From: Nitrospina sp. LS_NOB
GTDB taxonomy: Bacteria; Nitrospinota; Nitrospinia; Nitrospinales; VA-1
Assembly (NCBI GenBank): GCA_001542995.1
Contig: LFLA01000022.1
Span: 1 to 64,000, forward strand
Direction of reading: 5' to 3'
DNA length: 64,000 nt
Under the pieces are notes generated by a model, which was given only the letters and a program-made list of their open reading frames with translations, was not told the DNA's origin and ran no database searches. Position numbers and translations under genes: made by a program. Shown here piece after piece: positions 17,523-21,295 of this stretch. Every line of letters begins with the position of its first letter. The stretch's first letter is position 1.

Positions 17523-18311
17523 CTACCTATAGACTATTTGCACCTTTCCCTTACGGTTGGCTTTGAAGGCCGCCAACATCGTGCCCTCCCCTAACGGGTT
17601 CAGTATCAAATCCAGAACTTTTAGCTGAGGAAAGTGCTGCGACTCAATCAAGGCAACAGCCCCCTGATCGGTGATATTATTTTGTCCCATATATAACGAT
17701 TCCAGTTTCTGAAACTTCTCGGAACTGGCAAAAGCCAACGCCCCCCCATCACCAATTTCGTTGCGGAACAAATTCAACGTCGTTAACTGTCCAAACACTG
17801 TGGCCGAGGCCAGCATTTCAGCACCCACCGGAGTGATCAAATTATCGTTCAGCATAAGGGTTTTCAGGTGGGTAAAATTGCCGGATGCCACCATCAGTTC
17901 GATGCTGTCATCACTGATTTCGTTTTTCCAGAGCTTTAAGGATTCCAATTGCCCCAGATAAGGCGACTCCGAAATAGCTTTTAGACCCAGATCGCCCAGC
18001 AGGTTGCCCCAGAGATCGAGATGTTTCAATCCAGCCAGATGCGGAGACTTCGCCAAGGCCTTCATACCTTGGGCTCTGATATTGTTTCCCTGCAGAAAAA
18101 GAGTGGTGATCCCTTTGAGGGATTCCATCGCCGCCAGTTGTTTCGCCCCCGATGTGCCGATATGCAATCCGGTGAGGTCGAGAGTCTTGCCATCGTGGCT
18201 GATGCGTTTGGCAACCAAAGCCGAAAGATCCGCGCCCCACCCCAAAGTGGGGGAGGACAGAAGGAAAACCAGCAGATAAGTGACAGAAAGTTTTGTTTGG
18301 AAGGCTGACAT
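17523..18311 (-). CDS. Secreted leucine-rich repeat (RNI-like) protein
   Basis: A 262-residue protein with a signal peptide (LLVFLLSSPTLGWGA) followed by seven or so ribonuclease-inhibitor-like repeats of about 25-30 residues. The consensus is LxxLxLxxNxIxxxGxxxLA, for example LTTLNLFRNEIGDGGALAFA and LESLYMGQNNITDQGAVAL. The repeats form a protein-interaction solenoid; the ligand is unknown. The start codon lies just after a 3' fragment of a glycosyltransferase gene, suggesting an ancestral glycosyltransferase-LRR pair. A second, non-secreted LRR protein of the same type is at 30063-30971. Confidence 0.85.
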   Translation of the reverse strand: MSAFQTKLSVTYLLVFLLSSPTLGWGADLSALVAKRISHDGKTLDLTGLHIGTSGAKQLAAMESLKGITTLFLQGNNIRAQGMKALAKSPHLAGLKHLDLWGNLLGDLGLKAISESPYLGQLESLKLWKNEISDDSIELMVASGNFTHLKTLMLNDNLITPVGAEMLASATVFGQLTTLNLFRNEIGDGGALAFASSEKFQKLESLYMGQNNITDQGAVALIESQHFPQLKVLDLILNPLGEGTMLAAFKANRKGKVQIVYR

Positions 18312-18360
18312 GAAGTCAGGTTAACAAATAGTTGAAGAGGGTGTAAATAATTTTTGCACC
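18311..18360 (-). repeat. Direct repeat of the glycosyltransferase 3' end (copy C)
   Basis: Fifty bases nearly identical to 19969-20018 and clearly related to 20607-20656, the true end of the glycosyltransferase gene. Read on the minus strand it encodes KTGAKIIYTLFNYLLT followed by stop, the C-terminus of that protein. It ends at the start codon of the LRR gene. Confidence 0.85.
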
Positions 18361-18408
18361 CGTTTTGTCTGCCGGAATAACAATCGACTTGAGAGCCCTT
18401 CCTATCTT

Positions 18409-18450
18409 CCCTCCCTTCATAGGGAGGGACTGAGGGAGGGTTGGATTAAA
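18409..18450 (+). repeat. GGGAGGGTTGG-type dispersed repeat, solo copy
   Basis: Contains the palindromic core CCCTCCCTTCATAGGGAGGG followed by ACTGAGGGAGGGTTGGAT. Same orientation as the copies at 2477 and 19882, no gene attached. Confidence 0.8.
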
Positions 18451-18561
18451 AATCTGTACCTGAAGTGGTGTTCAACCATTAGATCCATGTCTCGATGAGG
18501 TGAATTGCACCTTTTAACCGGTCGCCAAGAATAGACTTACCTCCTTGCCTGCCCCACGCTC

Positions 18562-19335
18562 TCACTTATCTAAGATTCCCTCATGAAAGTCTTTTAGAAG
18601 CCGGTTAAAATTTTCTGTAAGGGATTTCATGATTTTCTCTGCGTCCAATTTTGATTTAAAATATTCATCAAAAAAAGTCTTATCCCTTGCCAAAATTGTT
18701 TCTTTATAAAACCATGTTAATGTGGCAGTCAACCAAAACCAAAATTCTAAAAGCTTCATGCAGTAATCAGTCACCATGATTAGATCCGGCTTACCTATAA
18801 CCCCTAAAACAAATTGATTCCCCTCACCTAGAAAGCGATGGGGAATTAGCTCTCTGTTTGGGTGTGTTGCTGAGCAAAAGAAGTTATATAACTCATCAGT
18901 TAAAACTTTAGACTCTCCTAATGGATGCTCATCCAGCGCACTTCTTATCTCATGATTATTAATTTTTCTCCCCTCCTCCCACTCCATAGCCAAAGACGGA
19001 TCCAGCGCAGATAAATGCAAAAGAGATAAGGATTCATAAGCTCTTCTTCCAAGCGGAAAAGCGATAGTGCACTTACCGCTTAGAATTAACTTCCTTGATT
19101 CATATAAGCAATCAAACACATCAGCCATTAAATCTCGAATAACTTTACCCTGAATATTTATTGGCTTTACCCCGCCAAGTAAATTAGTTATTCGAGACAG
19201 CAATTCCCCATACTTGTCAGTAACTTTTATGTATGGTTCTAACATTCCACATATCTCTCTACTTCTCTGGTCTGAATAATATTCCAGTTTTTCATAATCT
19301 TCGATAGCTCGCTTCTGGTTAGGGTTTTTCGACAT
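18562..19335 (-). CDS. Hypothetical all-alpha protein
   Basis: I do not recognise this protein of about 257 residues. The start is taken at the inner ATG (MSKNPNQKRAIEDY); an in-frame ATG 15 bases upstream is also possible. It is predicted mostly helical and charged. It has an LGRRAYESLSLLHL segment, a CSATHPNRELIPHRF segment and one hydrophobic stretch near FWFWLTATLTWFY that may be membrane-associated. The RRxxE and aHP-like motifs faintly recall HEPN-like or DUF5677-type families, but this is not secure. Composition is AT-rich relative to flanking housekeeping genes, and it lies in the accessory patch between two copies of the glycosyltransferase 3' end. Confidence 0.6.
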   Translation of the reverse strand: MSKNPNQKRAIEDYEKLEYYSDQRSREICGMLEPYIKVTDKYGELLSRITNLLGGVKPINIQGKVIRDLMADVFDCLYESRKLILSGKCTIAFPLGRRAYESLSLLHLSALDPSLAMEWEEGRKINNHEIRSALDEHPLGESKVLTDELYNFFCSATHPNRELIPHRFLGEGNQFVLGVIGKPDLIMVTDYCMKLLEFWFWLTATLTWFYKETILARDKTFFDEYFKSKLDAEKIMKSLTENFNRLLKDFHEGILDK

Positions 19336-19470
19336 ATAAAAACCGTCCAAATAAAGTTAAAGAAATAATTGCGTGGTATTTGGAGTAGCAATCATTTTTT
19401 TATTCTTTAGATAAATAAAAGTGAAAGGGTTAAATCCGCACTTGACTACAAGAGGGTAAAAGAAGCGCGG

Positions 19471-19955
19471 CAATCCAACCCTCCCCCAGCCCCTCCCTAT
19501 GAAGGGAGGGGAGGCAAATGCTTTAAAATCTTTTCGCAAACTCCATCCAGGTTTTCATAAACATCCTGATTGGTAAATCGCAGAAACCGTATCCCCATAT
19601 CTTCGATGGTTTTCTGCCGGATTTCATCCGATTGGATCGCCGTTCCACTGAAATGAGAGTCTCCATCGATTTCAATCGCGAGTTTTGCCGATGGACAATA
19701 AAAATCCAGAATGTACCCGTCCACACTGTATTGTCGCCTAAATTTATGCCCATTGGCCTGTTTGTTTTTCAAAAACTGCCACAAAGCCACCTCCGCTGGC
19801 GGCATTTCTTTGCGCAGGGATTTTCTTTTGGTTTTTTCTGTGTTTCTGTTAAAAATTTTTACCATAGCTTTTTGTATTCCAGGCTCCCCTCCCTTCATAG
19901 GGACTCAAGCCCGATAGTCTGAGGGCTTGATGGCCAAGGGAGGGTTGGATCAAAG
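19471..19955. mobile_element. Candidate DUF559 element flanked by inverted dispersed repeats
   Basis: A 485-base unit in which a DUF559 endonuclease gene lies between an inverted pair of the GGGAGGGTTGG repeat. The left copy is at 19471-19515 (CCAACCCTCCC outermost) and the right copy at 19882-19955 (GGGAGGGTTGG outermost). The right copy carries an insertion with its own hairpin, TCAAGCCC/GGGCTTGA at 19905-19912 and 19923-19930. Solo copies of the same repeat occur at 2477 and 18409. The layout recalls REP elements mobilised by an associated RAYT enzyme, but movement is inference. Confidence 0.5.
19497..19865 (-). CDS. DUF559 endonuclease-domain protein
   Basis: A 122-residue Vsr-like/restriction-fold protein. 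Diagnostic features are RKEMPPAEVALWQFLKNKQA, KFRRQYSVDGYILDFYC and KLAIEIDGDSH, then IRFLRFTNQDVYENLDGV; the D, E and ExD residues match the nuclease core. The preferred start is MVKIFNR at 19865. The frame is open eleven codons further to ATGAAGGGAGGGG at 19898, which is part of the flanking repeat. The stop codon TAG at 19497-19499 is also supplied by the repeat core. Thus repeat sequence provides the stop and possibly an upstream start. The function of DUF559 proteins is unproven. Confidence 0.85.
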   Translation of the reverse strand: MVKIFNRNTEKTKRKSLRKEMPPAEVALWQFLKNKQANGHKFRRQYSVDGYILDFYCPSAKLAIEIDGDSHFSGTAIQSDEIRQKTIEDMGIRFLRFTNQDVYENLDGVCEKILKHLPPLPS

Positions 19956-19968
19956 TTAGCATCCAACC

Positions 19969-20018
19969 CGAAATCAGGTTAACAAATAGTTGAAGATGGT
20001 GTAAATAATTTTTGTACC
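19969..20018 (-). repeat. Direct repeat of the glycosyltransferase 3' end (copy B)
   Basis: Minus-strand reading gives SGTKIIYTIFNYLLT and stop, matching the C-terminus of the glycosyltransferase at 20612-21295. About 46 of 50 bases agree with copy C at 18311-18360. Confidence 0.85.
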
Positions 20019-20030
20019 AGAAGTAGGCCA

Positions 20031-20255
20031 CTACCCGTCAGGAACCAGCTTCTTTTTAAGCCAGCTTATTATTGGAAAAATTAGAAATGCTAGAATAACG
20101 ACAGGAAACCTGTACTTGGCAAAAAAACCCTCCTCTACACGCACACCCGATAACGAATGAATCGCATCGGGCAAATAATCAGCCGTAGAGTAGATGATGG
20201 CGTAGGACAAAATTAGCGACAAAATAATGGCAATATTTTTCATGATAAATGCCAT
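20031..20255 (-). CDS. Small membrane protein, unknown
   Basis: A 74-residue protein with two hydrophobic segments (IAIILSLILSYAIIYS and FPVVILAFLIFPIISWL) and a basic C-terminus. No family recognised. Its start overlaps the stop of the upstream 97-residue gene by one base (TAATG), indicating translational coupling. It lies between copies A and B of the glycosyltransferase 3'-end repeat. Confidence 0.55.
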   Translation of the reverse strand: MAFIMKNIAIILSLILSYAIIYSTADYLPDAIHSLSGVRVEEGFFAKYRFPVVILAFLIFPIISWLKKKLVPDG

Positions 20256-20548
20256 TAGAATATTTTTGTCCTTAATTTTGGTTTAGGAATCTGGATATCC
20301 AGAGAGGTGTCAGACCAACTACAATCATCTGCCTGTTCTTCCAACTTTTGATGCAGTTCGAGGACACTCACTCCGTTTGATTCATATTCTTTTAATTTTT
20401 CCCTGGATATTGCAAGAAAGCTGTGCTCCGTTTTTTCTACAGGCAAATGCAGATTTCCATCCTTATCAAATTCTCCATAGGACTCACATCTACTGATTAA
20501 CTGTTTAAGGGTCTTTACGCATCTTGTAATGTTATTTTTTGAAATCAT
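20255..20548 (-). CDS. Small hypothetical protein
   Basis: A 97-residue, charged, soluble protein (starts MISKNNITRCVKTLKQLISR). It has no recognised domain; a helical first half and a ISREKLKEYESNG stretch are visible. Coupled to the small membrane protein that follows, forming a two-gene unit inside the repeat-bounded accessory patch. Confidence 0.5.
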   Translation of the reverse strand: MISKNNITRCVKTLKQLISRCESYGEFDKDGNLHLPVEKTEHSFLAISREKLKEYESNGVSVLELHQKLEEQADDCSWSDTSLDIQIPKPKLRTKIF

Positions 20549-20606
20549 AAAATATGATCCTCTTGAAATCTCATCATCAAAATTTTCTAGGGGGGTTATC
20601 CAAACC

Positions 20607-20656
20607 TGAAGTCAGGTTATTAAATACTTGAAGATAGTATAAATGATTTTTGTACC
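20607..20656 (-). repeat. Glycosyltransferase 3' end, copy A of the repeat
   Basis: The genuine last 45 bases of the glycosyltransferase gene plus a few bases beyond its stop. It matches copies B and C (19969-20018, 18311-18360) in the same orientation. Confidence 0.85.
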
Positions 20657-21295
20657 GGCTTTGATCGTCCCGGAAAAGGTGCCGGTGATCTTGGAAACCC
20701 CGATCCGCTCCCGATATTTCACCGGAACCTCCAGGATACGCAGTCCTTTTTTAACCGCCTTGATCTGCATCTCCACCGTCCAGCCGAAATTGGTATCCTG
20801 CATACCAATAGACTTCAACGAGTCGTAGCGAATGGCGCGGAACGGCCCCAGGTCGGTATAGCTGTGATGGAAAAACAGGCGTATTAAAAACACGGCCAAT
20901 TGGTTGCCATACCGCGATTGCGGTAACAATGCTGAGCGGCTTTCGGGAAGTATCATCCGGCTTCCCAGAACAAAATCCATCTCTCCGGCTTCTATCGGCG
21001 CCACCAGTTTCACAATCTCTTCCGGGTAGTCGCTGAAATCTCCATCCACAAACACCACGATATGTGGGCTGTCCAGTTCAGAAATCCCCTTCAGGCAGGC
21101 AGAACCATAGCCTCTTCTTTTTTCCACAACCACCCGCGCGCCTTTTTCAATGGCAGATCGGGCAGTGTTATCGGTTGAGTTGTTGTCAACAACGATGATT
21201 TCATGAATTTGATCTTGCGGCAGGGCATCCAGAACCAGTCCAATAGACTGCTCTTCATTGAAAGCGGGAATGATGACAGAAATGCGGGAAGGCAT
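20612..21295 (-). CDS. Family 2 glycosyltransferase, dolichyl-phosphate mannose synthase-like
   Basis: A 227-residue GT-A fold enzyme. Motifs are VIIPAFNEEQSIG, VVDNNSTDNTA, the metal-binding FVDGDFSDYPEE and VLGSRM, then DLGPFRAIRYDSL and GWTVEMQIKAVKKG. It lacks a C-terminal membrane anchor, so it is likely a soluble or peripheral enzyme using a nucleotide sugar and probably a polyprenyl-phosphate acceptor. It starts 18 bases after the trpA stop with a strong ribosome-binding site (GGAGGAG), and so may be read from the trp operon. That site is partly self-complementary with CCTCC next to the ATG. Its 3' end is repeated twice downstream. Confidence 0.88.
   Translation of the reverse strand: MPSRISVIIPAFNEEQSIGLVLDALPQDQIHEIIVVDNNSTDNTARSAIEKGARVVVEKRRGYGSACLKGISELDSPHIVVFVDGDFSDYPEEIVKLVAPIEAGEMDFVLGSRMILPESRSALLPQSRYGNQLAVFLIRLFFHHSYTDLGPFRAIRYDSLKSIGMQDTNFGWTVEMQIKAVKKGLRILEVPVKYRERIGVSKITGTFSGTIKAGTKIIYTIFKYLIT

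Follow-up and report, generated by a model that had tools for sequence, protein, structure and literature searches.

Repeated glycosyltransferase gene ends at a cargo hotspot of Nitrospina and their probable overlap with the start signals of the next gene

In a 64,000-nucleotide stretch of DNA from Nitrospina sp. LS_NOB (contig LFLA01000022.1, positions 1 to 64,000; here referred to as the window), the 3' end of a family 2 glycosyltransferase (GT) gene occurs three times in the same orientation, with accessory genes (cargo) between the copies and a leucine-rich repeat (LRR) gene after the last one. Direct repeats of a gene end at the edges of an island are usually taken as attachment (att) sites, and the first-pass annotation of the window read them in this way, as traces of serial integration. 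We describe here that the GT-LRR junction of a group of marine nitrite-oxidizing bacteria is a hotspot which takes varied cargo between the same core genes. The repeats most likely imitate the footprint of a mobile element, and no such element was found. The explanation that we consider probable is that the end of the GT gene overlaps the start signals of the LRR gene, that cargo entered by additive illegitimate recombination, and that selection kept the displaced copy of the gene end.

Results

Three copies of the GT gene end in the window

A repeat search of the window placed the three occurrences of the GT 3' end at 18308-18367, 19966-20025, and 20604-20663 in one family with the same orientation (identities of 83% for 19966-20025 and 82% for 20604-20663), and a BLAST search against the window's own genome recovered them with E values of 2.4e-25, 7.9e-11, and 1.5e-10. 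A degenerate 30-mer with up to 3 mismatches had 20 matches in the 16 genomes of the genus, compared with 0 for the reversed control pattern, and hence the repeat is not due to chance; 19 of the 20 matches lie at the GT-LRR junction. The three copies reported in the first-pass annotation are therefore real, while its description of each as the last ~45 coding bases plus stop context holds only in part. Copies B and C do have about 45 coding bases in common with the GT gene, but the copies are unequal, and only copy C has the native junction, joining the LRR start directly (GT stop, 5 nucleotides, LRR ATG). Past the GT end, copies A and B run into different sequence. On the minus strand, the order is GT, copy A, the 97- and 74-amino-acid genes, copy B, the DUF559 unit, the 262-amino-acid gene, copy C, and LRR, with the following features:

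20612..21295, minus strand: GT gene, family 2 glycosyltransferase open reading frame (ORF) (PF00535, E 9.3e-23); the repeat corresponds to its last 42-45 coding bases
20604..20663, minus strand: copy A, the GT gene's own 3' end and stop; TTTACA and TGTTAACCT lost
20255..20548, minus strand: cargo gene (ORF), 97 amino acids, no family by Pfam; by homology search, homologues at other loci in relatives
20031..20255, minus strand: cargo gene, 74 amino acids, no family; homologues by or near the 97-amino-acid homologue in G004, G036, and G026
19966..20025, minus strand: copy B of the GT 3' end, preceding DUF559; TTTACA and TGTTAACCT kept
19441..20012, minus strand: 573-bp block of copy B and the DUF559 unit, with a second occurrence on contig C10 (89.9% identity)
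19497..19898, minus strand: DUF559 gene, nuclease-like family (PF04480, E 1.6e-29), with inverted palindromic repeats (19473-19513 and 19884-19903) at its bounds
18562..19350, minus strand: cargo gene, 262 amino acids, no family; in this genome only among the 60 searched
18308..18367, minus strand: copy C, displaced native GT 3' end fused to the LRR start; coding frame out of use
18318..18347, minus strand: candidate LRR promoter in copy C, proposed from conservation: TTTACA (18347-18342), 18 nucleotides, and TAACCT (18323-18318) after TG, ending 6 nucleotides before the LRR ATG
17523..18311, minus strand: LRR gene (LRR_6, E 1.8e-20), by synteny the ancestral right neighbor of GT

A search for further copies in the genome, as the first-pass annotation had proposed, yielded a fourth on contig C10 of the window's own genome (G000 in the genus genome set). 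This copy lies within the second occurrence of the 573-bp block and was missed by the own-genome BLAST search.

Empty and occupied junctions in relatives

The GT protein was searched for in 60 genomes, including the window's own, and the stretch downstream of GT was examined in 12 relatives of the genus and in 22 of the 44 genomes outside it. A GT orthologue (at least 83% identity) is present in 13 of the 16 Nitrospina-genus genomes and was not found in G001, G011, and G014, all of which are incomplete. Among these 13, the junction is empty in three (G002, G005, and G012) and occupied by cargo with GT-end copies in eight (G000, G003, G004, G007, G008, G009, G013, and G015), while in G010 it is interrupted by a contig end. 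In G006 (locus L068), the LRR ATG is followed directly by a DUF559 unit that has inverted ends of 38 bp, at about 770-1260 in GT orientation; LRR resumes from a new ATG, and there is no second GT-end copy, which suggests that the DUF559 unit can insert on its own. The G003 and G015 loci are each spread over two contigs, and joining the G003 halves is supported by the presence of the same DUF5649-repeat protein type on both. In the neighboring genus, g6, the junction is empty in five genomes, and GT followed by LRR is a conserved arrangement order-wide.

The uninterrupted junction and the different cargo between the same gene-end copies that the first-pass annotation had expected in relatives are thus both observed. 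Its view of LRR as the ancestral right neighbor, with the gene end kept, is likewise borne out: copy C has a similarity of 94-96% to the native junctions in G002 and G012, compared with 85-88% for copy A. Insertions at the same junction in four genomes of other genera (G017, G018, G025, and G029) have no direct GT-end repeat in any of the four cases, and the GT-LRR gap is longer in 11 other-genera loci in which both genes are adjacent. This fits an overlap of the GT end with LRR start signals, and a genus-specific recombinase would be compatible with it as well.

Constraint on the gene end beyond the protein

In 8 empty loci, the last 14 codons of GT had a synonymous codon identity of 0.80, compared with a mean of 0.49 (standard deviation of 0.058), and the highest value of 202 other codon windows was 0.616. 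These loci are the three of the genus and the five of g6, and those of other genera, in which the gap is longer, were excluded. In the 8 occupied loci, the same codons reached 0.64, compared with 0.549, and 11 of 202 windows were equally high. The difference between 0.80 and 0.64 points to a constraint on the DNA beyond the protein that is weaker where cargo parts GT from LRR.

The pattern is reversed in the displaced copies next to LRR. Although noncoding now, the seven C copies have a pairwise identity of 0.86 over the last 39 nucleotides, compared with 0.38 (ungapped) in the 39 nucleotides upstream; for the GT ends, the values for the same two stretches are 0.85 and 0.84. TGTTAACCT is retained, six bases ahead of the LRR ATG, in all seven LRR-adjacent copies. 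Its combination with TTTACA is present in 6 of the 7 C copies and 7 of the 8 empty loci but in only 1 of the 8 GT ends of occupied loci (C versus A, Fisher P of 0.010, with lineages that are not independent). When C copies and the empty loci other than G005 are aligned (14 rows), TTTGTTAACCT and the ATG are invariant and their spacing is constant, with variable bases between them. As for internal copies, the motifs are lost in three without an obvious partner (G004 B, G015 B1, and the G013 internal copy) and retained in copy B of the window and in G009 B. The arrangement of TTTACA, 18 nucleotides, and a TG-extended TAACCT matches the consensus only loosely, and we take it to be a plausible promoter by analogy with extended -10 promoters. 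Judged from the sequence, the GT end probably overlaps the promoter or start region of LRR.

Unequal, decaying remnants of GT

The GT-end copies are GT remnants whose length varies between about 45 and 150 bp. In the part preceding the last 39 bases, GT homology is significant (P of 0.001) in 5 of 12 copies and marginal (P of about 0.02) in 2, and in the five significant copies it extends, by BLAST, to about 98-150 bases before the stop. The GT gene of the same genome is the best match for G004 B, G007 C, and G015 B1, the last of which is still 94% identical to it, and the second best for G003 C and G008 C. The upstream parts of the copies contain indels and stops, and internal copies away from LRR can show GT homology upstream together with a damaged end, as in G004 B, G015 B1, and the G013 internal copy. 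The remnants are generally closer to GT genes than to one another, and their left ends differ. Full-length tandem GT genes, which the first-pass annotation had named as the sign of mere gene duplication, were not seen; partial, decayed remnants of up to about 150 bp were seen instead.

In G003, an LRR fragment that reaches about codon 58 joins GT some 100 bases ahead of the stop at a shared CGGGAGCG, a microhomology of 8 bp, and a second, shorter LRR-GT joint lies 0.8 kb away. The GT-LRR junction has here been joined in tandem at a microhomology. Such a structure, with LRR 5' fragments fused to GT fragments, would be expected if the junction had simply been duplicated in tandem by slippage or unequal exchange and unrelated insertions had later entered the spare copy. 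However, LRR 5' fragments of convincing length were found in just one occupied genome, and the remnants outside G003 are joined directly to cargo. We consider plain tandem duplication unlikely, with the qualification that duplication followed by insertion and additive capture are hard to tell apart.

The same remnants bear on serial site-specific integration, by which cargo without an integrase but with an attP identical to the GT 3' end would be inserted by a recombinase acting in trans, regenerating the gene end each time. Such integration would account for the repeat at both cargo ends, the native copy beside LRR, and the altered GT end. Tyrosine recombinases are encoded elsewhere in the genome in 37 of 37 genomes searched, and a homologue of the 97-amino-acid cargo protein lies near one in G004. 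However, no recombinase or transposase family was found among 26 cargo ORFs of relatives (at least 100 amino acids) scanned in Pfam, no recombinase family was found in the four cargo proteins of the window, and PF00589 was absent from the contigs of occupied loci among the matches listed. The extent of att sites, being set by the element, should be constant, with sharp edges, and the variable extents of the copies tend to speak against such sites, as do the upstream parts that are decayed GT of the same or a close lineage. Nor does site-specific integration predict the synonymous conservation in empty loci of two genera. The concentration of 19 of 20 sequence matches at this single junction, the microhomology at the G003 tandem joint, and the insertions without a repeat in other genera count against it as well. 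The att-like integration put forward in the first-pass annotation is therefore rather improbable, and that interpretation as a whole is partly supported.

Cargo of the hotspot

The cargo differs between genomes. It includes Questin oxidase-like and AlkZ-like proteins in G004; a diacylglycerol kinase, a GNAT protein, an alginate-export-like protein, and a hybrid histidine kinase in G007; a carboxypeptidase-regulatory-like protein and a GNAT protein in G008; CBS, protoglobin/PsiE, and NnrS in G009; a Na+/H+ exchanger, peptidase M90, and DUF4399 in G013; SUI1, SelO, and cNMP-binding proteins in G015; and DUF5649 and CBS in G003. Scans of the cargo for defense families and with NCBIfam gave nothing convincing. 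G004 and G013 have right-end cargo in common (787 bp at 81%), and some left-junction sequence is common to G013 and G015, so not all insertions are independent.

This sharing, together with the clustering of occupied rows and a possible single origin, would also be expected if double homologous recombination in the flanking core genes shuffled an old island, the repeats being relics of one ancient event. That course is very unlikely, since GT-homologous remnants match GT better than each other in most comparisons, the left ends of the remnants differ, and the identity of G015 B1 to its own GT is still high.

With regard to the cargo genes of the window, the 262-amino-acid protein has no relative in 59 other genomes, and the 97-amino-acid protein has matches in 12 of 60 genomes, its own included. 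In G004 (C181:16664-18170; L141), at a different genomic place, a tyrosine recombinase gene is followed within about 1 kb by homologues of the 97- and 74-amino-acid genes, and at L145 (G003:C50), a 97-amino-acid homologue lies near a gene that looks, by eye, similar to the SelO gene in the G015 cargo. Accessory genes may move in this way from locus to locus within the genus. The repeat pattern was also considered as a property of the 97-amino-acid gene itself and rejected, as no gene-end duplication of that kind is present at five other loci of this gene. In several insertions (L070, L071, L073, and L074), the gene-end copy is followed by a loosely shared stretch (TTCGGA.AC.A and, later, CGACCCAWAGCGGA), which may resemble dispersed repeats or integron attC arms.

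The palindromic repeat at the bounds of the DUF559 gene is GC rich with a CCTCCCTTCATAGGGAGG core, which has 31 matches in the genome (up to 2 mismatches), compared with 0 for the reversed control. Sites were noted in the window at 19473-19513, 19884-19903, and 18406-18447 and on contig C10 (G000:C10:24103-24648). Inverted palindromic arms of at least 20 bp were present at 4 of 15 DUF559 loci examined in the genus, and the palindrome may be a nuclease-linked dispersed repeat family. A literature search on DUF559, judged by title, gave no paper on palindrome-flanked DUF559 genes. Beside the second DUF559 block, G000:C10:24650-25000 may be a transposase remnant.

Discussion

The data presented here are best accommodated, in our view, by the following sequence of events. 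At an empty junction, 5 nucleotides separate the GT stop from the LRR ATG, and the terminal ~42 bases of GT would double as the LRR promoter or start region. One side of incoming or sister-chromatid DNA would be anchored by homology within GT, and its other end would join the resident GT at a microhomology about 45-150 bp before the stop. The product would be an intact GT with a new 3' end, followed by the cargo, the displaced old GT 3' end, and LRR. The displaced copy would then decay save for its last ~40 bases, which LRR would need, and the new end of GT would retain its coding role only and shed the regulatory bases. Repeated rounds would give serial copies such as A, B, and C. The anatomy, the empty sites, the variable remnants, and the contrast in conservation are observed directly, and the promoter function and the recombination route are what we infer here. 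comEC is present in 9 of the 16 genus genomes, including that of the window, which also has dprA; this permits transformation but does not demonstrate it.

Several observations weigh against this proposal. A sigma-70 consensus scan found no promoter at the candidate site on the coding strand, and the leaderless pattern (TANNNT 6 nucleotides before the ATG) is not enriched in the window, where it precedes 2 of 52 genes, LRR being one of them. Upstream homology is undetectable (P > 0.1) in 5 of 12 copies, including B and C of the window, and copies of this kind could have a sharp edge like that of an att site. Copies B and C also have in common an AAC codon that is absent from copy A, which leaves the order of events in the window unclear. 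In G015, the last GT-end copy is separated from LRR by a cNMP-domain gene, and the C10 block of G000 indicates that a GT-end copy can travel with DUF559. Finally, the GT tree (last 84 bases excluded) resolves the genus poorly and requires 2 changes of the occupied label; the occupied lineages cluster on it, so that few origins are possible, even one.

If the overlap with additive capture is correct, an att-like footprint can arise without a recombinase, with the duplicated end being needed to tolerate the insertion. This would explain how some integrase-free hotspots get built and would provide a rule for permissible insertion places in tightly packed genomes. It would also be a warning that att calls from such repeats need checks of length, decay, and synonymous conservation. 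The literature searches made gave no description of gene-end repeats kept through overlap with the start signals of the next gene; a search on promoters in upstream coding regions and tandem duplication found nothing, and one on gene-end-restoring islands without an integrase gave none on the topic by title and start of abstract.

Integrative elements at gene 3' ends leave a direct gene-end repeat, with the gene regenerated and the displaced native end distal. The locus described here is similar in having a gene-end repeat at both boundaries, a regenerated GT, and a distal native end; it differs in that no integrase was found in the cargo, there is no fixed att length, and several remnants are decayed and of their own lineage. 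It is also conceivable, although we think it very doubtful, that an unrecognized trans-acting system uses the GT 3' end for attachment and loads single genes into a genus-specific locus, with the DUF559 gene and gene-end block as a cassette; such a system would resemble an integron without integron parts.

The passages of Oliveira et al. (2017; PMC5635113) that concern hotspots of horizontal gene transfer state that an integrase is encoded in fewer than half of them (45%) and put forward homologous recombination in the flanking genes. The GT-LRR junction is like the integrase-free hotspots in its variable cargo between conserved core genes and its absence of recognized mobility genes; unlike in them, most insertions here leave a copy of the 3' end of the left gene, a kind of repeat that those passages do not describe. 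For effector-immunity arrays of the Vibrio type VI secretion system, homology-facilitated illegitimate recombination is proposed and Rhs C-terminal displacement is named in the relevant part of the work of Kirchberger et al. (2017; PMC5361080). There, too, a module enters a gene in its 3' part and displaces the former 3' part or its partner downstream, and arrays form by repetition; the corresponding feature at our locus is the tandem of displaced, decaying 3' GT remnants. However, the Vibrio arrays keep old tips and immunity genes, whereas just the ~45-bp gene end is kept here, apparently for expression of the next gene. Homology-facilitated illegitimate recombination in transformable bacteria, as set out in the corresponding passages of Amarir-Bouhram et al. 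(2011; PMC3240628), uses one homologous anchor and one illegitimate joint, usually with 3-10 bp of microhomology. The 8-bp joint of G003, the one genome in which microhomology at an illegitimate joint was observed, is of this kind, but the laboratory events generally delete resident DNA, whereas insertion here is additive and duplicating. Since hotspots without an integrase and 3'-end displacement are both already known, we rate the kept gene-end repeat as a new variant of these processes.

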